Assembly: GCA_016214855.1 (NCBI GenBank) | Contig: JACRMT010000004.1 | Coordinates: forward strand, 124,001-188,000 | Length of the DNA stretch: 64,000 nt | DNA from: Nitrospirota bacterium | GTDB lineage: Bacteria; Nitrospirota; Thermodesulfovibrionia; Thermodesulfovibrionales; UBA6898 | Direction: 5' to 3' | Shown here: positions 6,923 through 27,127 of the stretch, piece after piece | How the letters are laid out: every line of letters begins with the position of its first letter | Numbering within the stretch: the stretch's first letter is position 1 | The notes under the pieces: model-generated | Database searches by the model: none | Told to the model about the DNA's origin: nothing | The model's input: the letters and a program-made list of their open reading frames with translations, nothing else | Translations under genes and position numbers: made by a program

Positions 6923-7822
6923 ATGGTTATTCGTTTTGGTCTTATGGTTGCAATAGTATCTGCGGCACTGGTTATGGGGGGATGCGCCAGACCGGCCGCT
7001 ACTGTTGACGGCAAAGGTATCAGCAGGGAAAAGATTGACCTTCATATGAAGGACCGGCTGAAGGAGCATAAACTTCAGAATGCGGCAGTTGACGAAAAAA
7101 AGATGAGGGCCGCCATTCTGCAGGAACTGATCGGCGAACAGCTTGTGCTGAATGAAGCTGCCGTGAAAGGCATTATCATTGCCGATGCTGAGATTGATAA
7201 AGAACTCGAACAGCTCCGCAAAAATATGGGTGAGGAGCAATATCAAAAAGCCCTTAAGGACAGGGGTCTTACCCCTGAATCTTACCGCAGCAGGCTCAGG
7301 GAGCGGATCACCTTTACTCGTTTTTTAGAAACTTTTGTGAAGCCGGAAGATGTCAGCGAACAGGAACTGCTGGATGTCTATAAGAACAGTCCGAAGCCAT
7401 TCCTGAAGCCTGCTCAGGTCAATATGAAGATTGTCGAATTTCAGACTGAGGATTCAGCAATTGCTGCTGCTGCTGAAATAAAGAGGACAAAAGCGGACTT
7501 TGACGAGTATGCAAAAAAGCTTGATGCTGAAAAGAAAGCTTCTGTAACGGATTATGGCTGGGTATCTCCGGACTTTTTTTCGCCTTCAATGGCGTCATCT
7601 GTCAAGATGCTTAAAGAAGGTCAGCAGGGCGGCCCTTATAAGGGAAAGACCGCATTTTATCTCGTGAGGGTAAAGGGCGTTCAGCACGAGAGCATAGCTC
7701 CGTTCGCTGAAGTGAAGGAATCGATCCGTGCGACGCTTCTGCAGCAGAAGCGGGGCGAGGCATATACGCAGTGGCTTGAACAGAAACGAAAGAGCGCAAA
7801 GATCGTTATAAATCTGAAATAG
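6923..7822 (+). CDS. PpiC/SurA-type peptidyl-prolyl isomerase lipoprotein
   Basis: This 299-residue protein has a lipoprotein signal peptide with a lipobox ending GGC (Cys about residue 18). A SurA-type N-terminal helical domain follows (SREKIDLHMKDRLKEH, LIGEQLVLNEAAVKG), then one divergent parvulin-like domain (about 155-270: FLKPAQVNMKIVEFQ, YGWVSPDFFSPSM). It is expected to be a membrane-anchored periplasmic foldase. AGGAGG lies before ATG 6923. It follows hypE by ten bases, so it may be read with the hyp genes, although no functional link is obvious. Two further relatives lie at 14664 and 15563. Confidence 0.85.
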   Translation: MVIRFGLMVAIVSAALVMGGCARPAATVDGKGISREKIDLHMKDRLKEHKLQNAAVDEKKMRAAILQELIGEQLVLNEAAVKGIIIADAEIDKELEQLRKNMGEEQYQKALKDRGLTPESYRSRLRERITFTRFLETFVKPEDVSEQELLDVYKNSPKPFLKPAQVNMKIVEFQTEDSAIAAAAEIKRTKADFDEYAKKLDAEKKASVTDYGWVSPDFFSPSMASSVKMLKEGQQGGPYKGKTAFYLVRVKGVQHESIAPFAEVKESIRATLLQQKRGEAYTQWLEQKRKSAKIVINLK

Positions 7823-13444: not shown

Positions 13445-14149
13445 ATGGGCCTTGCTGTTGAAGATATAGCGAGCCTCCTGGCGTTCTATCAGGCGCTTGG
13501 CTTCGAAAATCTGCCGATCACCGTGAGTGCGCCCGGAAGGACCGCGCGGATGCTACCTGCACCGAAGACGGGCGATAAGGAAAAGCAGCTCGGAGAATTA
13601 AGAGAGCATATTGGTGATTGCCAAAGATGTAAACTCTCGAGACAAAGGAAGAGCATTGTTTTTGGTTCCGGTGATCCAGGGGCAAGGCTTATGTTTATCG
13701 GTGAGGCTCCGGGGAAGGAAGAAGATCTGCAGGGACTTCCCTTTGTGGGTGATGCCGGCATGCTGCTGACGCGTCTGATCGAAAAGATGGGCATGAAGCG
13801 AGATGAGGTGTATATTGCGAACATTATCAAGTGCAGACCACCTATGAATCGTGATCCTGAAGAGGATGAGGTGGCTGTCTGCAGGGAATTCATTGAAAAG
13901 CAGATCTCGATAATCAGGCCAGCGGTTATCATGACACTCGGAAGAATAGCCTTGCAGGCCCTTATGAACTCTCCCAGGCTGAAGATTACATCAGCGCGCG
14001 GACATTTTCTCGATTATGAGGGCATCCCCGTTATGCCGACATTTCATCCTGCTTACCTGCTCAGAAATCCTCAGGATAAGATGCTTACCTGGTCAGATGC
14101 CCAAAAAGTCCTGGCCAGGATCGAACTTTCAGTCGGTGAAGAGCGATGA
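13445..14149 (+). CDS. Family 4 uracil-DNA glycosylase (Fe-S)
   Basis: The protein has 234 residues. After a poorly conserved N-terminal extension of about 50 residues come the first cysteines of the 4Fe-4S site (CQRCKL), then FIGEAPGKEEDLQGLPFVG, whose GEAPG-EE pattern defines families 4 and 5. Further motifs are IANIIKCRPPMNRDPEEDE, a CREF cysteine, and the C-terminal active-site loop TFHPAYLLRNP. It removes uracil from DNA. The four-cysteine pattern supports family 4. Confidence 0.93.
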   Translation: MGLAVEDIASLLAFYQALGFENLPITVSAPGRTARMLPAPKTGDKEKQLGELREHIGDCQRCKLSRQRKSIVFGSGDPGARLMFIGEAPGKEEDLQGLPFVGDAGMLLTRLIEKMGMKRDEVYIANIIKCRPPMNRDPEEDEVAVCREFIEKQISIIRPAVIMTLGRIALQALMNSPRLKITSARGHFLDYEGIPVMPTFHPAYLLRNPQDKMLTWSDAQKVLARIELSVGEER

Positions 14150-14676
14150 AAGGGGAGAGCATGGATGTTTTATGGGCACCCTGGAGAATGGAATACATCA
14201 AGTCGTCACCAAGGACAGAAGGGTGCGTGTTCTGTGAAAAAATGCTTGACACCAGAGACCGGGACAATCTTCTGCTGTACCGGAGCAGTCATACATTTGT
14301 CCTGATGAACCCCTTTCCGTATAACAATGGTCACCTGATGGTCCTTCCCGGAAAGCATGCACCTGGCATGGAAGGACTTGAGGATGAGGAGCTTCTTGAC
14401 TTGATGAGAACCGCGCAGCTCTGCATTGATTCCCTTCGTGAGGCAATGAGCCCCGAGGGTTTCAATGCGGGCATCAATCTTGGGAAGGTTGCAGGTGCAG
14501 GACTTGCCGATCACCTGCATCTGCACATTGTGCCGCGATGGGCAGGGGACGCAAGTTTTATGACTGTTGTCGGCGAGGTCAGGGTCATCCCTGACCACCT
14601 GCTGAGAACGTATGATTCTCTTTTCGAAATCTTTAAGAGACGGGGCGCCGAGAGGGCAGGCAGTTGCAAAGGGTGA
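14146..14676 (+). CDS. HIT-family nucleotide hydrolase/phosphorylase
   Basis: This 176-residue histidine-triad protein has the catalytic motif HLHLHIVPRW (about residues 124-133). The zinc-type CVFCEKM segment near residue 27 and NPFPYNNGHLMVLPGKH are typical of the Ap4A phosphorylase/HIT branch. Its likely activity is cleavage of dinucleoside polyphosphates or adenylated by-products. It starts four bases inside the preceding gene. The real start may be the second Met (MDVLWAPWRMEYI, 14161), which matches the family N-terminus better. Confidence 0.92.
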   Translation: MKGESMDVLWAPWRMEYIKSSPRTEGCVFCEKMLDTRDRDNLLLYRSSHTFVLMNPFPYNNGHLMVLPGKHAPGMEGLEDEELLDLMRTAQLCIDSLREAMSPEGFNAGINLGKVAGAGLADHLHLHIVPRWAGDASFMTVVGEVRVIPDHLLRTYDSLFEIFKRRGAERAGSCKG

Positions 14677-15614
14677 TACGGTACACTGCGGTATCGGTCC
14701 CTGTTCTTGTCCTGTTTTTTTTCAGCAGCGTATGTTTTGGACTTACGGTTGACAGAGCTCTTGCTGTTGTCAATGGCGAGGTTGTTACCCTTTCTGATTA
14801 TGGCCGGTTCGTAGCGAGGATGGATCAGAAAGCTGACAGGGAAAAGGTCGGCGAGCAGTATTTGAGGACGCTGATCGAGGAAAAGCTTATCCTTCAGGAG
14901 GCAAAACGCAAAGGTTATGATGCGACTGAAGAAGAGGTCAGCCAAAGCATTGCCGGTTTTCTTGAGCAGGCAGGCATGCAGGAAAAGGATTTTGAAAAAA
15001 AGATTGCCCTGGAAAATCTCAGCATGTCGGATTACCGTTCCTTGCTCAGGGAAAATATCATATCCCTGAAATGCATTGAAAAAGAGGTCAATGCAAAGGT
15101 GATCGTAAGCAGCAGCGACCTTTCGCGCTATTATGAAAAGCAGCGTGCCCGTTTTATGGAAAGCCCGGAAAAGGTCCTTGTCATGGCAATCGTTATGAAG
15201 CTGAGCGCAACCCCGAGCCTGACCGAGATCACTGATCTTAAGATCAGGTCGCTGAAGGTCTACTCAGAGATCAGAAACGGAGAATCTTTTGAACGGCAGG
15301 TGTACAAGTATGCTGATGAGTCCGTGAAAAGCCTTGGCGGCAAACTGGGAGAATTCGAGAGGGGTGCGATGATATCTGTTCTCGATGAAAAGATCTTTTC
15401 GATGAAGGAAGGTGAGGTCAGCGAGCCGATCTGGACAAAAGATGGTGTATATATTCTCAAGATAGCAAAGAGGACTCAGGCAGTGTATACTGCCTTCGAA
15501 AAGGTGAAGGATGAGCTGTATGCCAAGGCATACGAAGAGAAGCGAGAGGAAACATTTAACGCATGGATGAAAAAGATATGGGAAAGGTCTTCTGTAAAAA
15601 TACTGCAGCAATAA
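14664..15614 (+). CDS. SurA-like periplasmic peptidyl-prolyl isomerase
   Basis: This 316-residue protein has a cleavable signal peptide (VSVPVLVLFFFSSVCFG). A SurA N-terminal domain follows (VDRALAVVNGEVVTLSDY, LRTLIEEKLILQEAKRKGY), then one parvulin domain (about 165-290: LGGKLGEFERGAMISVLDEK, GEVSEPIWTKDGVYILKI). It is predicted to chaperone outer-membrane proteins. The start is TTG 14664 or GTG 14673, with AGAGGGCAGG upstream. It overlaps both neighbours (13 and 52 bases), consistent with one operon through the giant gene that follows. Confidence 0.9.
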   Translation: MQRVIRYTAVSVPVLVLFFFSSVCFGLTVDRALAVVNGEVVTLSDYGRFVARMDQKADREKVGEQYLRTLIEEKLILQEAKRKGYDATEEEVSQSIAGFLEQAGMQEKDFEKKIALENLSMSDYRSLLRENIISLKCIEKEVNAKVIVSSSDLSRYYEKQRARFMESPEKVLVMAIVMKLSATPSLTEITDLKIRSLKVYSEIRNGESFERQVYKYADESVKSLGGKLGEFERGAMISVLDEKIFSMKEGEVSEPIWTKDGVYILKIAKRTQAVYTAFEKVKDELYAKAYEEKREETFNAWMKKIWERSSVKILQQ

Positions 15615-18600
15615 TCTGTCTGCTCATTGCTCTGCTCTGCTCTGGCGGCAGTTCCGGCGGCGCTGTGCAGGAGGCTGATCTTTTTGAAAAGGCCTATGAA
15701 TATTATCTTGCCCTAAACCCTGAGAAGTCGATTGAGACCTTTGATCAGTTTCTCAAGCAATTTCCCGACAGTTCTGCCCTTGATTCCGTCCTTTTTTGGC
15801 GTGCCAAGGCGCTTATGCAGATGAAAAGGATCGACGAAGCTGCCCGGGGACTCCGCAAATTAAGAGAGACCTTTCCTGAAAGTTCTTACTCCATATTTGC
15901 TGAAAAGGAGCTCGATGCACTTAAGAATCTGCCGCAGAGGACAGATAGAACTGATATTGTCAGGGAAAAGACAGCGAAGATCTCCGACGCCAAAATTGAG
16001 GGTTATGAGAACCGCATAAGAAAGCTTGAAGCTGAAAAGGCTGACCTGGAAAAGCAGCTGTCCGATGCGGAAAGAAAAAGACAGCTCACAGAGAAAGGCC
16101 TGTCTAAGGCACTTGATGACAAGAATGCCCTCGAATCACAACTTGATGAAGTGAAAAAAAGCAGGGATGACCTTGTGCAAAAGGGAGCAGTCCTGGAAAA
16201 GGGAAGCACGGAGACATCAAGATTAGCCGAAGAAAAGAGAGTTCTCGAATCCAGACTGAAAGCTGGAGAGGAAAAGATTGGCAAGCTTTCCGCTGATCTT
16301 AAGCGGACTGAGGAGAAGATTGCGGCCATAAGCGGTGAACTCACCGGCAAAATTCAGCAGGGTCAGAAGGACTGGGAACAGCTCGATCTGCTGTCAAAAG
16401 AGCTTAAGACCCGGAATATGGCCATCGAAACTTCACTAAAAGAGAAGGACAGTGCCCTCTCAGACGCGCAGCAGAGCATGGCGAGCATGAAAAAGAGCAT
16501 GGCAGATTTTCAGTCTGCGAAACAGCGTGATGTTGAGAGCCTGAATCAGTCTGTCGCGAGATTGTCAGCTGAAAAGGTCCTGCTTGCAGAAGAGGCTGCC
16601 GCTGAAAAGAAGAAGGCCGATGATCTCCTGGCCAGGCTGCAGGCGAAAGATGGGGAAGTGAAGAAGCTCCTGTCTGATGAGACAAAACGCAAAGCTTCTG
16701 AATCTGCTGCTGAGGAGAGGTTAAAGCACGGCGTCGCAGAACTTGCAAGGATGCAAGGCGAAAGGGACGACTTGCAGTCGTCGGTCAGAACACTCGAGGC
16801 GCGTTTAAGGGAAAAGAACGATCTTGCGTCACAGGCCGGAGATATCAAAAAGCTGCGCGAAGAGGTAATTTCCAGCACCGCAGAGCTTGATAGAATAAAG
16901 AAGGAAAATAGAGCGCTCCTTGAAGACAGGAAAGTCCTCGAGACCCGGATAGCCGAGGATCAGGAAAAATCGAGACTAAGCGCGCTCAGCAGGGATAAAG
17001 AGGAAGAGAAAGAAAAGAAAGCACTCGTTGCGGAATCCCGCGAACTGGAAAGGAAACTGCATGATGCAGCAGCGCAGGTCAGGCAGCTTCTCGATGACCG
17101 GCAGAAGATGGATGCTGTTCTCAAGGATCGTGATCAGGGTCTTGCAAGGTCACAGGAAGCAATAGCTCTGCTGGAGCGGACACTGAAGGGCGCAGAACAG
17201 GAGAAGGCAAAGCAGATACAGGAACTTGTTGAGCGGAGCAGGACTGCAGACATAGAGAAGAAAACGCTGCAGGATGAGCTGGCCAGGGAGAGAAAAAGAG
17301 TTGCGGAGTTCTCAGGCAGGGTAACAGAAAGGGAGGCTGCCCTGATAGATGAGGTGAAAGCTCTGCAGGGTTCCCGGCAGGAGCTTGAGGCAAGGCTTGC
17401 ATCGGAAAAAGGCGACCGTCGGGACGAAAAGCTGAAACTGGAGGCGGAGCGGGACAGTATACGAAGACAGTTCGAGGAACTTGGCGCGCAGGCAACAAAG
17501 GTCAGGGATGTGTTATCACAACTCGATGAAAGCCGCAAGAAGCAGGAAGAGCTGGCAAAGATTGCTGCGCTGAACGACAAAGAGATCACAAAGCTCAGGA
17601 CCGAAAAGGGAGAATTGGAATCGAGACTCAAGGACGCCGTCAAGAGACAGGATGAAACGGATCTTGCTCTCATCAGGATATCAGAGGAGAAACAGGTCAG
17701 AGAGGCCCAGCTAAAGGATCAGCAGAACAGGCTCACTAAGTCACAGGAGTCAATAACATTGCTGGAGAAGACCCTGAAGGGATCAGAGCAGGAGAAGGCA
17801 AGGCAGCTGCAGGACCTTGATATGCGGGCAATAAAGACCAGGGATGCGTTATCACAGCTCGAAGAGAGTCTCAAGAAGCAGGAAGAACTGGTAAAGATTG
17901 CTGCGCTGAACGACAAAGAGATTACAAGGCTCAGGGCGGAAAAGGCAGGGCTGGAAGACAAGCTCAGGGTGGTTGAGGAAGGGGTCAAGACCTTATCCGG
18001 TATTAAACAGCGGGATGAACGTACGGCAGCAGAAAAACTCGATCTGGAGCAGAAACTGACGAAAGAGCGCGCCAGGTTTGATACTGAAACGCAGAAGATC
18101 GGATCAGAGCGCGATGAACTCAAAAAACAGCTCGGGGGCCTGGAAGCGTTGAGAAAGGAAAAAGAGGGGCTTGCGGCGAGACTTGATGAGACGAAGCGTT
18201 TACATGCTGATGCAATAATGAAGAGTGGTCAGGCGGAGAAAATGGCACAGGATAACCAGATCCTGCTGGATGAAAAGAAGCAGTTGGAGATCAGACTGAG
18301 AGACAGCGAGGAGAAAATTGCAGTCCTTGCCTCGCAACGTGACAAAGACACTGCTCTTGAACGTGAACGAAAAGATCTCGCTGCACGCCTTGACGAGCAG
18401 GAAAGGAAGCTTAAGGAACAACAGGCATCCATCTCAAGGCTTATGGTCGAGAAGGGTGCCATGGAAAAAGAGCTTAAAGAGGGGAGACAGGATATTGCCG
18501 CTGTAAAGGCGCTCAGGGAATCCCGCGACCATCTCCAGCGCGAGGCTGATAGGATGAAGACAGAGCAAAAGCAGATGCAGGCAGAATTATCGGAACTGAA

Positions 18601-19465
18601 AAAAATAGATAAAGAGCATCTGACCGCAAATAAAGCACTGTCCGGCGAACTGGCTGCACTGAGAATGCAGGCACGCGATACTGATAAGCCTTTTCTCCGG
18701 ATAGGACAGGAACGTTTTACTCTTGCCACGGTGATTCGCGAAGGTACGATCGCAGGCAGCGTTGCTGATAAGATCAGGGTAAAGACCGTTCCCTGGAGGA
18801 CAGGGAATATCGTTGATGACTTTATAGCCGAGCAGATACTCGCTCGCAGGGCTCGGGAAGAGGCATTCACGATTGATCCAAAGCTGAAGGGGTCGCTGGT
18901 GAAACAATATGCACTGAACGAAGAAGAGGGCGCGTATCTTGACCGATATCTGGCCATCGACGGACTGTTCAGAAGTAAGGATGCAATTCCTGCCCCAACA
19001 GAGACGGACGCCAGGGAATACTATAATAAACACCGCGAGCAATATCTTCATGGGCGCGAAAGCCGGATCAGGGTTCTCAGCATAAAATACGGAAAGTCTG
19101 ATGAACTTGAAAAGAGCGTTATTGCTGTTGAAATCCACGGAGAGGCTCTTGAGGGAAGACCCTTTGATGCGATTGCGAGAAAACGCCCGGCTGTCGCTTC
19201 GATGAAAGAAATGTCTCTTTCGAAGCTGCCAGAATGGGTTCGCGTGAGGCTTGCCAGCCTTAGGGAGGGAGAGATCAGCAGTATTATTTCAACAGACAAC
19301 GAGTTTATGATCATTCAGGCTTTACCCTCAAAACCGGGATATCGCCCCTTTGAAGAGGTCAAAAAAGAGGTCGAGAAGAAACTGTCGGCTGAGCATTCAG
19401 GCCGGAGGCAGTCCCTTGAGGATTGGTTAAACGCTCAGAAAAAAGAGATAGAGTTCCTGAGATAA
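15563..19465 (+). CDS. 1300-residue fusion: TPR-like N-terminus, long coiled coil, C-terminal PPIase-like domain
   Basis: After a signal-like segment (about 10-28) comes a TPR/YbgF-like region (about 38-120: FEKAYEYYLALNPEKSIETF, QFPDSSALDSVLFWRAKAL). About 900 residues of Lys/Glu/Gln-rich heptad sequence follow (about 140-1040). The C-terminal 260 residues resemble the SurA/PpiC layout: a helical domain (DDFIAEQILARRAREEAF) then a parvulin-like part (ESRIRVLSIKYG, LPEWVRVRLASLREGEISSI). This looks like a periplasmic spacer carrying a foldase at its tip. The start may be ATG 15563 or ATG 15578; the first cysteines do not form a convincing lipobox. It overlaps the SurA-like gene by 52 bases. 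I know no named family with this whole architecture. Confidence 0.85.
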   Translation: MDEKDMGKVFCKNTAAIICLLIALLCSGGSSGGAVQEADLFEKAYEYYLALNPEKSIETFDQFLKQFPDSSALDSVLFWRAKALMQMKRIDEAARGLRKLRETFPESSYSIFAEKELDALKNLPQRTDRTDIVREKTAKISDAKIEGYENRIRKLEAEKADLEKQLSDAERKRQLTEKGLSKALDDKNALESQLDEVKKSRDDLVQKGAVLEKGSTETSRLAEEKRVLESRLKAGEEKIGKLSADLKRTEEKIAAISGELTGKIQQGQKDWEQLDLLSKELKTRNMAIETSLKEKDSALSDAQQSMASMKKSMADFQSAKQRDVESLNQSVARLSAEKVLLAEEAAAEKKKADDLLARLQAKDGEVKKLLSDETKRKASESAAEERLKHGVAELARMQGERDDLQSSVRTLEARLREKNDLASQAGDIKKLREEVISSTAELDRIKKENRALLEDRKVLETRIAEDQEKSRLSALSRDKEEEKEKKALVAESRELERKLHDAAAQVRQLLDDRQKMDAVLKDRDQGLARSQEAIALLERTLKGAEQEKAKQIQELVERSRTADIEKKTLQDELARERKRVAEFSGRVTEREAALIDEVKALQGSRQELEARLASEKGDRRDEKLKLEAERDSIRRQFEELGAQATKVRDVLSQLDESRKKQEELAKIAALNDKEITKLRTEKGELESRLKDAVKRQDETDLALIRISEEKQVREAQLKDQQNRLTKSQESITLLEKTLKGSEQEKARQLQDLDMRAIKTRDALSQLEESLKKQEELVKIAALNDKEITRLRAEKAGLEDKLRVVEEGVKTLSGIKQRDERTAAEKLDLEQKLTKERARFDTETQKIGSERDELKKQLGGLEALRKEKEGLAARLDETKRLHADAIMKSGQAEKMAQDNQILLDEKKQLEIRLRDSEEKIAVLASQRDKDTALERERKDLAARLDEQERKLKEQQASISRLMVEKGAMEKELKEGRQDIAAVKALRESRDHLQREADRMKTEQKQMQAELSELKKIDKEHLTANKALSGELAALRMQARDTDKPFLRIGQERFTLATVIREGTIAGSVADKIRVKTVPWRTGNIVDDFIAEQILARRAREEAFTIDPKLKGSLVKQYALNEEEGAYLDRYLAIDGLFRSKDAIPAPTETDAREYYNKHREQYLHGRESRIRVLSIKYGKSDELEKSVIAVEIHGEALEGRPFDAIARKRPAVASMKEMSLSKLPEWVRVRLASLREGEISSIISTDNEFMIIQALPSKPGYRPFEEVKKEVEKKLSAEHSGRRQSLEDWLNAQKKEIEFLR
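17146..17940 (+). repeat. Degenerate internal duplication within the coiled-coil gene
   Basis: Two blocks recur at both DNA and protein level. Block A encodes SQEAIALLERTLKGAEQEKA near 17150-17230 and SQESITLLEKTLKGSEQEKA near 17745-17825. Block B encodes KKQEELAKIAALNDKEIT near 17535-17590 and KKQEELVKIAALNDKEIT near 17875-17930. In the second copy A and B are contiguous, whereas in the first they are separated by about 260 bases. This suggests duplication followed by an internal deletion or insertion. Confidence 0.8.
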
Positions 19466-19466
19466 T

Positions 19467-20600
19467 ATGGTAGACATTGACAGACAGATAGAGATTGCAA
19501 AGAAAAAGCCGCTCACGGCAGAGAACCTCAACTATATCGGCGACCTGTATCTGAAGAAAGATGATAAGCAGCGGGCTGTTGCATATTTTTTTGAGGCGGC
19601 TGACAAACTTCACTTCGCACAAAAAGAAAAGAAGATCGCCATTTACAAGAAGATCCTGAAGATCTCGCCGGTCTCGGAAAAGGCCTACATCGGCATTATT
19701 GAGATCCTCTCAAAGATGGGGCTTGTGATGGAGGAGAAGAAATACCTGCATATGCTCGCACAGCTTCATGAGAACAGAGGTGACTCGGCAAAAGCTATCG
19801 AGCTTCTCGACAAGATCAGGGAACTTGATCCCCATGTCATGCCGGACGGCACATTTTTCCACCGCGAAGCCCACGAGCAGATAATCGGATACGGCAAGGA
19901 TAGTCGAAGGCAGGAGGCAGCAATAAATGAAGACGAAAACAATGTGAGCCAGCCGGGAGAGCAGTCTCTGCCGGATTTATCGGTATCCGGCCCTGCCGAA
20001 GCTATCGAGGAGGAGAAACTGATTGTGGCCTCGCTTGAAGAAATTCCCCTTGAGGAGCCTCCTCCTGCTGAGGGGGTGTTGAGCGGAATCTCCCGTCGGC
20101 AGTATCTTCTTGGCGGCATCATTCTCGTATTGCTTGTTTTTGCTTCAGGAGTTTTATACTATTCCTTTGGGACACGGGCAAAGCCGGTTGCATCTCTGCC
20201 GGTGTCGAGCCGTCTTAATGGTTATGAGATAACTGTTTCCAGGCTTGCTGACCAGACAGAGGTGACTGGCCTTATCACTGCGCAGGATCTGCGCGATAAC
20301 GATTTCCTTGTGCTTGCCGTCAGCAGTCTTAGCAATTGTATTCCGGACGCATTTGCAACAGCCCCCTACAACATGATATCGTTACGAGACAGGAAAGGCG
20401 GGGCTACGCGCATTAAACCAGTGGACGGACTGCTGAAGACTTCCAGATCAATATCAAAAATGAATGTTTGCGGCAGAGACAATGCAATAGTTTTTGTAAG
20501 GATGATCGTCCCTGTTGACCGACATATCCTTTATTCCGGACTGGCCCTGGACGGACTTCAGAATACCGGGCCGCTCACAATCACATGGGATCTGCGATAA
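19467..20600 (+). CDS. TPR-containing single-pass membrane protein of unknown function
   Basis: The protein has 377 residues. The N-terminal about 130 residues are TPR-like helices (ENLNYIGDLYLKKDDKQRAV, RGDSAKAIELLDKIRELDP). An acidic, proline-rich linker (about 150-205) and one transmembrane segment (about 213-232: YLLGGIILVLLVFASGVLYY) follow, then a C-terminal domain of about 145 residues that I cannot place. A basic SRRQ before the membrane helix suggests the TPR part is cytoplasmic and the C-terminal domain periplasmic. It begins two bases after the giant coiled-coil gene, so the products probably act together. Confidence 0.75.
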   Translation: MVDIDRQIEIAKKKPLTAENLNYIGDLYLKKDDKQRAVAYFFEAADKLHFAQKEKKIAIYKKILKISPVSEKAYIGIIEILSKMGLVMEEKKYLHMLAQLHENRGDSAKAIELLDKIRELDPHVMPDGTFFHREAHEQIIGYGKDSRRQEAAINEDENNVSQPGEQSLPDLSVSGPAEAIEEEKLIVASLEEIPLEEPPPAEGVLSGISRRQYLLGGIILVLLVFASGVLYYSFGTRAKPVASLPVSSRLNGYEITVSRLADQTEVTGLITAQDLRDNDFLVLAVSSLSNCIPDAFATAPYNMISLRDRKGGATRIKPVDGLLKTSRSISKMNVCGRDNAIVFVRMIVPVDRHILYSGLALDGLQNTGPLTITWDLR

Positions 20601-20605
20601 GAGTC

Positions 20606-22051
20606 ATGCGGATCATGCGGTTCATGGTCTTGACAGCTGCTACTATGCTGATCGTGTCACTCTATGCGCCGTTAGCGTCTGCGCTGCCTGAAAAGAAGCC
20701 TGACAGCAGGCTCCTTGCCTTAAAAATACAAAAAAATATTTCTCTGAATGATCTGATCAAGACCTCGGGATACGGCATCAGCGACGAGGCTGTCGTCCTG
20801 TTCCTTACCGATTTCATCGGGCTTAACCCGTCTATCAAAAGTGTCAGTCTGCTGAAGAAGGGAACTTTGGTGCGGCTGCCGATCAAGCATCTGAAGAGGT
20901 CGGAGGAAGGTTCGGCACGTTCCCGGGAAAAAGCCGAACGCGGCAGCCCGCGCTATCGGGTTTCAAAAAGGAGAACTCCGCTTCTCCTTCCCGCTCAGGA
21001 AGTTCTGCGCATTGACAGATCCGTGTTGTTGAAGAACATACAGAGGCTCTTTTCTGAACTGGGAGAGGACGTATCTTTAGTGAAGGAAGGGTTTAAGTAT
21101 TTCTCCCTGGGCGAAAAAAGCGACCTTTCTTTTGATACCGGCCGGTTCCCGATTTTGGAGCTGCGCAGTGATCTCATCCTCATCGTTGACCACACAGATA
21201 CGTTTCCCGAAGACGTGAAAAACATGCTTGAGGTCTCCTGGCCCGAATATCGGGTGGTCAGTCCGCGGGGCAAAGTAGACCTCCGGGGGATTGTTCCTAT
21301 CCTGCTGCATGAGTCAGGATACCTTTTCCAGGAAAACAGCAAGATGATTTCGGGCGGAGCAGCTCAGGTCGAGTATTATGCGGATTTTCTTGTTCATGGG
21401 AAAAATGGTAAGCCTATGGAGAGCGATATTTCGCTGGTCAGTGTTCTTGACAGCAGCGAATACCGGACGCCGCAGGAGATCACTTCATGGTTTAATGACC
21501 GGGATATACGGATCATCGAGCTCGCGGAGCAGGACAGAAAATATATAAACAGAAGTCCTGGATCGGCTCTCGATATGCAGGGGAATCCCCGGAGAAACGT
21601 ATTTGTAGAAGGCGTGCTTACGCTCATGGGTTATCCTTTTTCGCGTGGCCAGAATATCAATATGTCACCGAAGAAGGAGATAACCTTCAACATGCGGGCT
21701 GACCTGCTTATTGATATGGGATACAGGAAGAAGATCATTGAATTTTCAGGCATCACTGAGCAGGAGCTGAAGTATGTGCAAAAGTCAGGGCTGGATATAG
21801 TGCAGATTGAACCATGGGAGTCGAAAAATGATGTGATCAGGAAAGTTATGACTCTCCTGTCTCTTAACTATACGAACTCGTCCAGAAAGAATTCCTCGGT
21901 CCTTTCGCCGAGGAATACCCGCTATCGCCTTTTGGTTCCCGGTTTTGTCGTTAAGTCTCTGAAGGGAGTATTTTTCTTCACGGATGCCAATATAGACGCG
22001 GAACTGCAGAAGAACATCATGGGCGAGGGCATATCGTTGGTCACTTTTTGA
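20606..22051 (+). CDS. Secreted protein with LysM-like N-terminal module, unknown function
   Basis: The product is about 480 residues with a signal peptide (MRIMRFMVLTAATMLIVSLY to ASA). A LysM-like module follows at about residues 45-95 (ISLNDLIKTSGYGISDEAVV, LNPSIKSVSLLKKGTLVRLP), which would bind peptidoglycan. The remaining about 380 residues, including DLILIVDHTDTFPEDVKNML, match nothing I recognise. A frame also opens at ATG 20585, but 20606 has AAGAG five bases upstream and gives a better signal peptide. It is co-directional with the TPR gene. Confidence 0.75.
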   Translation: MRIMRFMVLTAATMLIVSLYAPLASALPEKKPDSRLLALKIQKNISLNDLIKTSGYGISDEAVVLFLTDFIGLNPSIKSVSLLKKGTLVRLPIKHLKRSEEGSARSREKAERGSPRYRVSKRRTPLLLPAQEVLRIDRSVLLKNIQRLFSELGEDVSLVKEGFKYFSLGEKSDLSFDTGRFPILELRSDLILIVDHTDTFPEDVKNMLEVSWPEYRVVSPRGKVDLRGIVPILLHESGYLFQENSKMISGGAAQVEYYADFLVHGKNGKPMESDISLVSVLDSSEYRTPQEITSWFNDRDIRIIELAEQDRKYINRSPGSALDMQGNPRRNVFVEGVLTLMGYPFSRGQNINMSPKKEITFNMRADLLIDMGYRKKIIEFSGITEQELKYVQKSGLDIVQIEPWESKNDVIRKVMTLLSLNYTNSSRKNSSVLSPRNTRYRLLVPGFVVKSLKGVFFFTDANIDAELQKNIMGEGISLVTF

Positions 22052-22068
22052 TTTTTTGTTATTTTTCT

Positions 22069-22098
22069 TTGACATAGAGCATCAAAATATGATTTTAT
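22069..22098 (+). promoter_or_regulatory. Putative promoter for the four-repeat AMIN-like gene
   Basis: A consensus TTGACA lies at 22069-22074, and a T-rich -10 (TTTTAT at 22093-22098, 18-base spacer) lies downstream in an AT-rich stretch. GAGGAATAAGGG precedes ATG 22130. This would allow independent expression of the last gene of the envelope cluster. Confidence 0.5.
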
Positions 22099-22129
22099 AT
22101 ACCTTAATAAATTCATAGAGGAATAAGGG

Positions 22130-24262
22130 ATGGTTCCAGGGAAAAAAGCATCAGAAAAGTATTCTGTACTTCTCATTGCATTTGTCGTCGTGCTCTGCCT
22201 GTACAGTATGGTCTTTGCCGGGACTGTCGTCATAAAGCCCGGTCAATTCGACCATTTTACCGTGCAGATGCCGGAAAAAGCAGTTGCCGGAGAGAACTTC
22301 GTTGTTAAAGTTTCTGTGTATGATGCAAGCAAGAACCTCATAACCAATTTTTCTGAAACAGGCAAGGAGTTCAAGGTCGATGTCAGCGGCGCAGCAACCA
22401 CTCAGCCTGCGGTATTGGGTGCATCCGCCTTTACAGGCGGCATTGCCAGCATTGTGGTCAATAACAAAAAAGCGGAAAAAACAACCTTTTCCATCAGAGA
22501 GGCCGGCGGTTCTGTGCCGGTGATCAGCCGCGAGATCCTGGTTATACCCAACCGCCTTGATCATTTTATTGTTCAGTCGCCGGTATCTGTCACAGCAGGA
22601 AAAAACTTTGATGTTAAGGTAGTTGCAAAGGATATATTTGAAAACACCGTTCAGGACTTTGATATCGGCAAGAATATCAAACTGACCACCACAGGAACGT
22701 CTTCCGTCAAACTGCACGGAAGTGAAGCAATTGACTTCAAAAATGGCCAGGCCGCGGCAGTCTTTGTTTCTGAAAAGGTCGGAGATGTGATCATTGAACT
22801 GCAGGAACTGACTTCCGGCAGTATGGGAAAGACCCAAAATATTCAGGTAAGCCCGGCTAACCTTGCTTATTTCAAGCTGCAGGCGCCAAAGGCAGCGGTT
22901 GCAGGCGAAGCCTTTGAACTGCTACTCTCAGCATACGATACGTACGATAATATGGTCACCAACTACGCTTCAACCGGAAGCGGTATCAGGTTATCGACAA
23001 CAGGCACATCGAAGATCGATCCCTCTGCGGTTAATCCTTCTGAATTCAGGAACGGACAGGCTCTCGTGAAGGTTGCGTATGAGAAGGCTGAAGAGATCCA
23101 GATCGTGGCAAGAGAATTAAATAGCGAGCAGTCCGGCAAGACTTCTGATATTCTTGTTGCGAATGCATCCCCGGATCACTTTGTGGTAGTAACTCCTGAT
23201 ACCGGCGTATCAGGTCAGAAGTTCAAAATCAAGGTTGAGGCATACGACAGGTTCAATAATATTGTTAGGAATTTTAACCTTATCGGTGCTGACGTTATGC
23301 TCAGCACGTCAGGCAATGGTTCTTTGAGCCCAACGAAGGTCCCGGCTCCCGATTTCGCGAACGGTATTGCAGTTGCCGATGTCACTTACGACAGGGCAGA
23401 ATCCTTCCAGATCTCTGCCAGGATGGCATCTGACAGATCGGCCGGAAGAATTTCGGTCAGCGACCGCGAGGTAAAACGCGAAGTGCCTCATGCACCTGCG
23501 AACGCCGAAACAAAAGAACTCAGGAGCCCGGCTGAAACTACGGCCAAGATATCAAAGAAGAAAGAAATAATAGATTTACAGAAGACAAAGCAGGAAAAGC
23601 ATCTTCCTGTTCAGAAAAAGCAGCAAACAAAGCAGGAAGCGAAGAAGGCACCGGTCAAGGCAGCCAAAGAGGTAAAAAAGCCTGAACCCAAAAAAGAAGC
23701 TTCGGAAAAAGCGGAACAAAAACAGGAAACTGGAAAGAAAGAAGCCCCTAAGGCCGTGAGCAGAGAGGCTGCAAAGAAGTCAGCAGAGCCGCAGCAGATC
23801 GTTGCAAAGAAGGAAGTCCCTCCTGCAAGGCCTGTTGAAAAGAAAATAGAGAAGCCTGCTGCCGATGAAGCAAAAAAAGCCATTACGGAGGCACCAAAGA
23901 AAGAAGAAAAAAAGACCGAAAAAGCTCTGTATAACATAAGCAAGGTTTCTATCATTGAGGCAAAGAACAAGGCGATGCTTGTTATCAATATCACCAATCC
24001 TAATGGCAACCTTGACTACGGAGATGAGATCGAATCCAAATACGGCAAAGAGTGGCTCAAGCTGCGAATAAGACCTGCTATTAACAGCACAGAGAAAGCG
24101 TTTAAGTTTAAGTCAGCGTATGTAGGTGAAATGCTTATCGAAGAAGATAAGGCCGGCGGTCAAAATCTTATTAATGTCTTTATCGAACTCCTTCCTTCCG
24201 GCGTCACATATGATATTGCCCGTATAAAGAACACGCTTGTTGTAACATTTTCAAATCCCTGA
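22130..24262 (+). CDS. Four-repeat Ig-like secreted protein with KE/P-rich linker and AMIN-like C-terminus
   Basis: The protein has 710 residues and a signal peptide to about residue 30. Four repeats of about 100 residues begin near 40, 142, 244 and 347 (FDHFTVQMPEKAVAGENF, LDHFIVQSPVSVTAGKNF, LAYFKLQAPKAAVAGEAF, PDHFVVVTPDTGVSGQKF), each with a YDxxxNxVxNF turn typical of bacterial Ig-like beta sandwiches. A low-complexity Lys/Glu/Ala/Pro linker spans about 446-598. The final 110 residues (NISKVSIIEAKNKAMLVINI) resemble AMIN domains, which localise amidases and PilQ to peptidoglycan. A periplasm-spanning scaffold or adhesin is plausible; function is unknown. A terminator follows. Confidence 0.8.
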   Translation: MVPGKKASEKYSVLLIAFVVVLCLYSMVFAGTVVIKPGQFDHFTVQMPEKAVAGENFVVKVSVYDASKNLITNFSETGKEFKVDVSGAATTQPAVLGASAFTGGIASIVVNNKKAEKTTFSIREAGGSVPVISREILVIPNRLDHFIVQSPVSVTAGKNFDVKVVAKDIFENTVQDFDIGKNIKLTTTGTSSVKLHGSEAIDFKNGQAAAVFVSEKVGDVIIELQELTSGSMGKTQNIQVSPANLAYFKLQAPKAAVAGEAFELLLSAYDTYDNMVTNYASTGSGIRLSTTGTSKIDPSAVNPSEFRNGQALVKVAYEKAEEIQIVARELNSEQSGKTSDILVANASPDHFVVVTPDTGVSGQKFKIKVEAYDRFNNIVRNFNLIGADVMLSTSGNGSLSPTKVPAPDFANGIAVADVTYDRAESFQISARMASDRSAGRISVSDREVKREVPHAPANAETKELRSPAETTAKISKKKEIIDLQKTKQEKHLPVQKKQQTKQEAKKAPVKAAKEVKKPEPKKEASEKAEQKQETGKKEAPKAVSREAAKKSAEPQQIVAKKEVPPARPVEKKIEKPAADEAKKAITEAPKKEEKKTEKALYNISKVSIIEAKNKAMLVINITNPNGNLDYGDEIESKYGKEWLKLRIRPAINSTEKAFKFKSAYVGEMLIEEDKAGGQNLINVFIELLPSGVTYDIARIKNTLVVTFSNP

Positions 24263-24283
24263 TACTGAACAGAACAAGGACCC

Positions 24284-24319
24284 AAAAAGCCTGCGGATAT
24301 CATCTGCAGGCTTTTTTTT
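24284..24319 (+). terminator. Rho-independent terminator closing the envelope cluster
   Basis: A perfect 11-base inverted repeat (AAAAAGCCTGC at 24284-24294 with GCAGGCTTTTT at 24306-24316) has an 11-base loop and runs into eight T residues. It lies 22 bases after the stop of the four-repeat gene. Confidence 0.92.
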
Positions 24320-25948: not shown

Positions 25949-27127
25949 ATGGAGAATACAATAGGGCGGCTTATTACAAAAAGATTTTTTTCTGTCGTGG
26001 GTGCACTCTTTTTCCTCGCGATATCATCAGTATTCCCTTCTTTCTCTTCCGCTGTTGATAACATAGACGTCACCGATATTCGTTACTGGTCATATCCGGA
26101 TTATACGCGCGTTGTCATAAGCCTGACCAATAGTCCTGATTATGCCGGGAACAAACTTTCAAATCCGGACAGACTGTATTTTGACATCAGAAACAGCCGT
26201 CTGAAGCAGGATCTTCAGAAGACCATATCCGTTGGTAATGGCATGCTCAAGACCGTGCGGGCAGGGCAGTTCAATGAGAGCACCGTGCGCGTTGTGCTTG
26301 ATCTTGATAAAGTGACCAAGTACAAGGTCTTGACCATGGAAGATCCTATTCGTCTTATTATAGACATCTATGGCGAAAAGCCGGCCGCGTCGGTCAAGAA
26401 AAGGATCGTGCTCGATCCCGGCCATGGAGGTCATGACCCGGGAGCGGTCGGTCCGAAGAATTTATACGAAAAAGATGTTGTACTCGACATCGCATTAAAA
26501 CTGAAGAAGATCCTGGCGAACGATCCGAATCTTGAGATATTCCTTACAAGAGAAACGGATGTGTTTATTCCCGTTGAGCAGCGGCCCGCGATTGCGATCA
26601 GCAAGAACGCTGACCTTTTTCTTTCAATCCATGCCAATGCGAGCCCTCGAAGAGATGCGAGAGGGATTGAGACTTATTTTCTCAATTGGACTAACGATGA
26701 AGAAGCAAACAGGGTCGCTGCGCGCGAAAATGCCATATCCCTCAAAAAAATGAAAAAGCTGAATGAAGGAAGGGATGTGCTCGAGGTGATGCTGAGCGAT
26801 CTCAGGAGGGACAATAAACGCGATGAGTCCCTGAAACTCGCAAACTTTGTCCAGCAGAACATGGTGAGCAGCCTGAACAAGAGCTACAGCCATATCGTAG
26901 ATCACGGCGTGAAGCAGGCCCTTTTCTATGTGCTTTTCGGGGCGCAGATGCCTTCCGTGCTGGTTGAGGTGTCCTTTATCAGCAACCCTCTTGAAGAGAA
27001 GCTTCTCTCAAAGGACGGTTACCGTTCAGAACTTGCGAAATCGATTGCATCCGGGATCAACAAATACATGAGTGGGGCACCTGAGGGCCAGACCATAGCA
27101 CAGCGCGGCAGGACCGTTGTCCGCTGA
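25949..27127 (+). CDS. amiC: N-acetylmuramoyl-L-alanine amidase with AMIN domain
   Basis: The protein has 392 residues: a signal peptide (about 1-34), an AMIN domain (about 38-140: IRYWSYPDYTRVVISLTNSP, DRLYFDIRNSRL) and an Amidase_3 catalytic domain (about 150-380). The zinc ligands are visible in VLDPGHGGHDPGA (His), in EKDVVLDIALKLKK (Glu), and in LFLSIHANASP (His). It cleaves the amide bond between MurNAc and the stem peptide, usually for daughter cell separation. It starts 12 bases after the NifU-like gene and overlaps the EcfT-like gene. Confidence 0.95.
   Translation: MENTIGRLITKRFFSVVGALFFLAISSVFPSFSSAVDNIDVTDIRYWSYPDYTRVVISLTNSPDYAGNKLSNPDRLYFDIRNSRLKQDLQKTISVGNGMLKTVRAGQFNESTVRVVLDLDKVTKYKVLTMEDPIRLIIDIYGEKPAASVKKRIVLDPGHGGHDPGAVGPKNLYEKDVVLDIALKLKKILANDPNLEIFLTRETDVFIPVEQRPAIAISKNADLFLSIHANASPRRDARGIETYFLNWTNDEEANRVAARENAISLKKMKKLNEGRDVLEVMLSDLRRDNKRDESLKLANFVQQNMVSSLNKSYSHIVDHGVKQALFYVLFGAQMPSVLVEVSFISNPLEEKLLSKDGYRSELAKSIASGINKYMSGAPEGQTIAQRGRTVVR

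Follow-up and report, generated by a model that had tools for sequence, protein, structure and literature searches.

Three neighbouring genes and an unlinked fourth, co-inherited in a Nitrospirota family, suggest a previously undescribed scaffold between inner membrane and cell wall

The window analyzed in this study is a stretch of 64,000 nucleotides from a Nitrospirota genome of 3.3 Mb (assembly GCA_016214855.1, contig JACRMT010000004.1, positions 124,001 to 188,000), and its subject is a run of five consecutive open reading frames (ORFs) on the forward strand, designated P1 to P5, which spans positions 14664-24262 of the window (Table 1). The ORF calls bear out the original prediction that five same-strand genes follow one another here with tiny overlaps or gaps up to position 22051: P1 and P2 overlap, P2 and P3 are 1 bp apart, P3 and P4 overlap, and 78 bp separate P4 from P5. 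The strong terminator proposed for the end of the set was also recovered, since the segment 24278-24322 folds at -21.4 kcal/mol (z -6.19), a value that 0 of 200 shuffled sequences equalled. The left border of the set is arbitrary, because P1 overlaps an upstream HIT-family gene (14146-14676) and thereby continues a same-direction run of NAD kinase, uracil-DNA glycosylase and HIT genes leading into it. Among the protein modules claimed earlier, two foldases (SurA_N and parvulin in P1, parvulin in P2) and an AMIN-like domain (by fold, in P5) were found, whereas a LysM-like module in P4 stayed unconfirmed.

Table 1. Genes, domains and terminator of the P1-P5 run (positions in the window; TPR, tetratricopeptide repeat; TM, transmembrane; Ig, immunoglobulin)
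Feature	Position	Strand	Basis
P1, SurA-like periplasmic foldase	14664-15614	+	Pfam SurA_N, Rotamase_3
SurA_N domain of P1	14748-15065	+	Pfam, 4.3e-10, 40.2 bits (cut-off 30.8)
Parvulin domain of P1	15120-15473	+	Pfam Rotamase_3, 9.6e-15, 55.6 bits (cut-off 22.5)
P2, exported; TPR, coiled-coil-like middle, C-terminal parvulin	15563-19465	+	TPR_6, Rotamase_2
TPR of P2	15680-15928	+	TPR_6, 2.4e-6
Parvulin domain of P2	about 18995-19366	+	Rotamase_2, 2e-8
P3, TPR, acidic linker, TM helix, periplasmic domain	19467-20600	+	TPR models, hydrophobic helix, domain shared with P6
TPR of P3 (predicted cytoplasmic side)	about 19491-19877	+	TPR models
TM helix of P3	20103-20159 (residues 213-231)	+	Single hydrophobic helix
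Periplasmic domain of P3	20181-20597	+	Domain common to P3 and P6
P4, signal sequence, LysM-like start domain, core lacking a fold assignment	20585-22051	+	In 9/27 family genomes
LysM-like start domain of P4	20717-20893	+	
P4 core, fold unassigned	about 21017-22048	+	
Duplicated unit in P4 core	21209-21532 and 21557-21874	+	hhalign 80.8%, 47 columns
P5, signal sequence, four Ig-like repeats, Lys/Pro/Glu-rich spacer, AMIN-fold domain	22130-24262	+	
Four Ig-like repeats of P5	about 22241-23440	+	
AMIN-fold domain of P5	23909-24259	+	Fold match of predicted model
Rho-independent terminator closing the P1-P5 set	24284-24317	+	15-bp stem

To trace the inheritance of these genes, 27 genomes of the family were searched. 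P3, P4 and P5 were present in the same nine genomes and absent from the other 18, and the nine share the gene order P1-P2-P3-P4-P5, which contig ends interrupt in G169, G172 and G154. A profile of the P3 periplasmic domain retrieved two copies from each of these nine genomes and none from the remaining 18. The second copy belongs to a sixth protein, P6, which is unlinked to the cluster (in G000, an ORF of 1160 aa on contig 7) and shares exactly the 9/27 pattern; P3, P4, P5 and P6 occur as one copy each. If only genomes with a completeness of at least 90% and a contamination of at most 5% are counted, 9 of 19 have P4, P5 and the P3/P6 domain. The genomes are drafts in which absence is not distinguishable from a gap, and the greedy gene calls may miss or mis-start genes (P5 was missed at locus L186 and split at L192). 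It is highly probable that P3-P5 and the unlinked P6 constitute a co-inherited functional unit. P1 and P2 are outside this tight unit: all genomes with P3-P5 have P2 and all genomes with P2 have P1, but both genes are found without P3-P5 in relatives, a P1 orthologue (at least 35% identity) being present in 20/27 genomes and a clear P2 relative (E below 1e-29) in 17/27. The conserved synteny expected for five genes holds for P3-P4-P5, and the idea of a single five-gene machine was half right: P3-P5 stay together in the family, P1 and P2 are looser, and P5 occurs alone in other families of the phylum. The sixth protein, which belongs to the set, is not visible from the window.

Where the block is lacking, the neighbouring genes are retained. 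P1 is followed directly by the radical SAM gene in G171; G168 and G167 have the layout of G169 minus P2-P5; and G148, G152 and G162 have the layout of G122 and G158 minus P3-P5, a shorter P2 being followed by the small Cys-rich protein that comes after P5 in G122 and G158. In G164 and G165, P2 is followed by a gene on the opposite strand. A gene tree built from four neighbouring proteins of 17 of the 27 genomes and one outgroup interleaves cluster-positive and cluster-negative genomes (support drops to 51 and 63 at two nodes), and parsimony needs five changes, so that P3-P6 change together repeatedly. Since the labels are about as scattered as in shuffles (five or fewer changes in 478 of 2000), descent of one clade fails to explain the pattern. 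The nine family sequences form one clade in the P5 tree (support 71), with G169 grouped with G000 and G170 as the exception. Because the branching within this clade mostly agrees with that of the gene tree, the best fit is vertical inheritance in which the genes were repeatedly lost together.

Next to its signal-like helix, P5 has Ig-like repeats (Big_1 was below the Pfam cut-off in the window's P5) and a spacer between these repeats and the AMIN end. The last 117 aa, modelled from two sequences, reached a predicted local distance difference test (pLDDT) score of 76.4, compared with 36 to 66 for the other four of the five models. This predicted fold matched AmiC (4bin; Z 12.1, root-mean-square deviation 3.0 over 105 residues) and PilQ (Z 12.0, 10.7 and 10.5) above unrelated proteins; the first small heat-shock protein stood at Z 7.0 and the PflA N-terminal domain at Z 7.6. 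A negative hhalign comparison taken by itself would have spoken against the AMIN assignment, but by its modelled fold the C-terminus of P5 appears to be an AMIN domain. No secretin or amidase domain was found in P5, a PDB sequence search with P5 gave no match, and scans of viral contigs with P4 and P5 found no relatives. An amiC gene with its own AMIN domain is located three genes downstream of P5, at 25949-27127 of the window.

P3 has a single hydrophobic helix and none at its N-terminal start, from which we infer that its TPRs and linker are cytoplasmic and its C-terminal domain periplasmic. TPR models matched all nine P3 proteins, and the linker has a net charge of -2 to -19 in 9/9. In G136, which belongs to another family, the gene after the SurA-like P1 encodes a 154-aa protein that matches only the TPR part of P3 (L212:8033-9730); this suggests that P3 arose when a TM helix and a periplasmic domain were added to a TPR protein. 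P6 consists of a long coiled-coil-like stretch, predicted to be cytoplasmic, followed by a single TM helix and the P3-type periplasmic domain, and no Pfam family was above cut-off in the three P6 proteins scanned. In five genomes P6 adjoins a PilZ-DUF4388-DnaJ-type protein: G122, G158 and G160, and, in another family, G101 and G130 (in G130 with an ankyrin-like gene in between). The neighbour in G122 contains DUF4388, DnaJ and TPR, with PilZ below threshold (19.5 vs 22.5 bits); PilZ is above the Pfam cut-off in a relative of this neighbour beside P5 in G101, and at L185 the assignment of the PilZ-type gene beside P5 is based on its length and location. The remaining six family genomes with P6 have it elsewhere, five of them near a small zinc-ribbon-like protein (Pfam-checked in G000). 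Pairs of a PilZ-DUF4388-DnaJ-TPR gene and a gene for a coiled-coil TM protein with the P3-type domain were seen at L207, L208, L209, L210 and L237.

Comparison with known systems gives P3-P6 a nearest working model. As described in PMC12918733, FimV and HubP combine a LysM-like periplasmic module, an inner-membrane helix, an acidic cytoplasmic linker and TPRs. P3 likewise has an acidic linker and TPRs, on the predicted cytoplasmic side, and P4 a putative LysM-like module; however, the parts are divided here between two proteins, no single polypeptide joins LysM-like, TM and TPR parts, and the order of P3 is reversed, with TPR first and the periplasmic domain last. With E values up to 1 allowed, the matches listed for P3 and P4 included no FimV model, and FimV C-terminal family models are presumably part of NCBIfam. 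P5 shares the AMIN fold with the secretin PilQ and the amidase AmiC but carries Ig repeats and a charged spacer. A model of the SgmX type (Myxococcus xanthus) matched P3 weakly (3.7e-9), but at 35 bits against a cut-off of 1800 and in the TPR part only. The match of the P5 end to PflA, a Campylobacter flagellar motor scaffold, is near background; the two proteins do not resemble each other otherwise, and no flagellar gene was identified nearby. According to PMC5285504 and PMC10653833, murein binding by the AMIN domain of PilQ and the LysM domain of FimV positions type IVa pilus machines at septa and poles.

These data suggest that P3-P6 form a scaffold between the inner membrane and the cell wall. 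One envelope scaffold of P3, P4, P5 and P6 spanning inner membrane, periplasm and murein is the best explanation, albeit a tentative one to which we give somewhat less than even credence; a murein-anchored scaffold is favoured because P3 and P4 carry parts of the FimV/HubP type, reversed and on two proteins. P5 would be exported, its AMIN domain would bind denuded (septal or polar) peptidoglycan, and its Ig repeats and charged spacer would act as a reach arm; P4 would serve as a bridge in the periplasm. P3 and P6 would be single-pass inner-membrane proteins with one shared periplasmic docking domain, and the TPRs of P3 and coiled coils of P6 would collect clients in the cytoplasm. Contacts among the four proteins are likewise part of this proposal. 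The arrangement would resemble a FimV/HubP-like landmark in which different proteins carry the peptidoglycan-binding parts and the TPRs. A machine linking inner membrane, murein and outer membrane had been predicted. An inner membrane-murein link, which fits P3, P6 and the AMIN domain of P5, is slightly favoured, while the outer-membrane part is only hinted at by the presence of the P4 start domain on secretins and outer-membrane barrels. A landmark role is possible but rather unlikely. The fuller version, in which the P5 AMIN domain and the LysM-like domain of P4 would read septal or polar murein and P3/P6 receptors would carry the mark into the cytoplasm, with some lineages wired to cyclic di-GMP (c-di-GMP), is a little more doubtful; the c-di-GMP link, through the PilZ-DUF4388-DnaJ protein in some lineages, is suggested by gene neighbourhood in five genomes. 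Literature searches, with most subscription journals outside their coverage, returned nothing related by title among the matches listed for Nitrospirota with AMIN, and no paper on Nitrospirota joining periplasmic, LysM and tetratricopeptide, on Nitrospirota with PilZ and c-di-GMP, or joining PilZ, DUF4388 and DnaJ or DUF4388 with c-di-GMP.

The distribution of the P4 start domain (about 65 aa) bears on another explanation, in which P3-P6 would be accessory proteins that anchor a secretion machine of the outer membrane (for type II secretion or polysaccharide export), with this domain as a docking tag through which secretins and barrels are held to murein or to P5. In a phylum sample of 375 genomes, the domain was found in 14, of which 13 also have P5. 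Five genomes of family f2 have it C-terminally on secretin-type proteins (L140, L141, L142, L143 and L145), three of the five being confirmed as GspD-type secretins by family models, and in G170 and G158 it forms the N-terminal part of BBP2_2/EpsL-like barrels (L011:1399-3258 and L013:1390-3201). However, the genes identified around the cluster, in the window and in relatives, include no secretin, assembly ATPase, pilin or other pilus or secretion gene, the P4 core was detected outside the family only in G258 of f2, and no P3-type periplasmic domain was detected in any f2 genome. We consider this secretion-anchor role unlikely.

P5 was found in 50 of the 375 genomes, and no match to the P1-P4 profiles was detected beside it in the 20 regions retrieved around distant matches of P5 or P4. 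Because P5 stands alone among varied neighbours in other families, it is older than the cluster. In G014 and G047, P5 is followed by ftsY (Pfam SRP54) and flanked on its other side by a divergent mreB operon, which includes mreC in G014 (mreB and mreC were identified from translations, at two loci only), and genes of matching sizes and order surround P5 in G142 and G079; P5 loci by an mreB-type divergent operon are L182, L187, L188 and L194. These neighbours, the AMIN fold shared with AmiC and the position of amiC three genes downstream in the window's genus would agree with a role of P5 alongside the machinery of cell elongation or division, in a cluster that tunes murein remodelling. Nevertheless, P5 neighbours vary by family, including tpiA (triosephosphate isomerase)-secG in G104, the PilZ-DUF4388-DnaJ protein with ruvC and ruvB in G101, and polysaccharide-type genes, and G171, G168 and G167, members of the genus without P2-P5, retain amiC at its usual site; such a role in wall growth appears improbable. 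Least likely is that there is no single machine and that a P1-P2 foldase operon gathered envelope genes, with P3-P6 lost jointly by bulk shedding of surface proteins: many genomes do have P1 and P2 but not the others, P5 changes its neighbours outside the family and draft gaps look like absence, but the unlinked P6 has the exact 9/27 pattern and a domain in common with P3, and the close relatives G170 and G171 differ in the block while the neighbouring genes stay.

Several points weigh against the scaffold. The AMIN assignment of P5 rests on fold only: the Pfam AMIN model was listed for none of the nine P5 members, hhalign of the P5 end against six AmiC AMIN domains, including that of the neighbouring AmiC, was not significant, and Foldseek alone gave no match below 1e-3. 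Neither the LysM label nor the core fold of P4 is established, the AlphaFold model of whole P4 (two sequences) having a pLDDT of 35. Behind its signal-like N-terminal helix, the start domain shows in this model a low-confidence strand-helix-helix-strand order; hhalign against four E. coli LysM domains gave a probability of only 20.5% (P 0.0011; controls P 0.07-0.72), and no Pfam LysM match was obtained in 17 copies of the domain, nor any Pfam family in P4. PDB sequence searches returned only fragments of designed TIM barrels for P4 and weak, unrelated matches for its start domain. In addition, P6 has two forms and stands beside the PilZ protein in only three of the nine family genomes. Furthermore, 37 of the 50 P5 genomes, all outside the family, have no detected P3/P6 domain; there, either P5 can work alone or P6 is below detection. 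In favour of the scaffold, the P3-type periplasmic domain was found in 14 of the 375 genomes, 13 of which also have P5 (Fisher test 1e-11, ignoring kinship, which inflates this count).

P1 combines a SurA N-terminal domain with a parvulin domain, as SurA-type foldases do. P2 resembles them in its C-terminal parvulin (35.5 bits against a Pfam cut-off of 27 when the last 267 aa were scanned alone) but has TPRs and a very long, charged, helical, coiled-coil-like stretch ahead of it. Both are probably same-operon foldases that would help exported parts to fold without being dedicated to them. A scan of named genomes found P1 at 82% identity in a groundwater Nitrospirae metagenome-assembled genome (JACRHC010000009.1, L014); one distant parvulin was the only other match. 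P2 appears as two overlapping ORFs in G158 and G160 (L121:12506-15912 and L123:11094-15262), either a frameshift or a two-gene form. Membership of P2 in the Tol-Pal system, proposed from weak YbgF- and BamD-like TPR matches, was dropped. Another SurA-like foldase (6923-7822 of the window) is the last gene of a hydrogenase maturation run, hypF-hypD-hypE.

The outcome of this study is a set of four envelope proteins, none yet characterised, that is open to testing; P6 among them could be recognised only through its shared domain and matching presence pattern. If the four act jointly, they would reveal how murein sites are marked, and the mark relayed over the inner membrane, in bacteria distant from the proteobacterial models.

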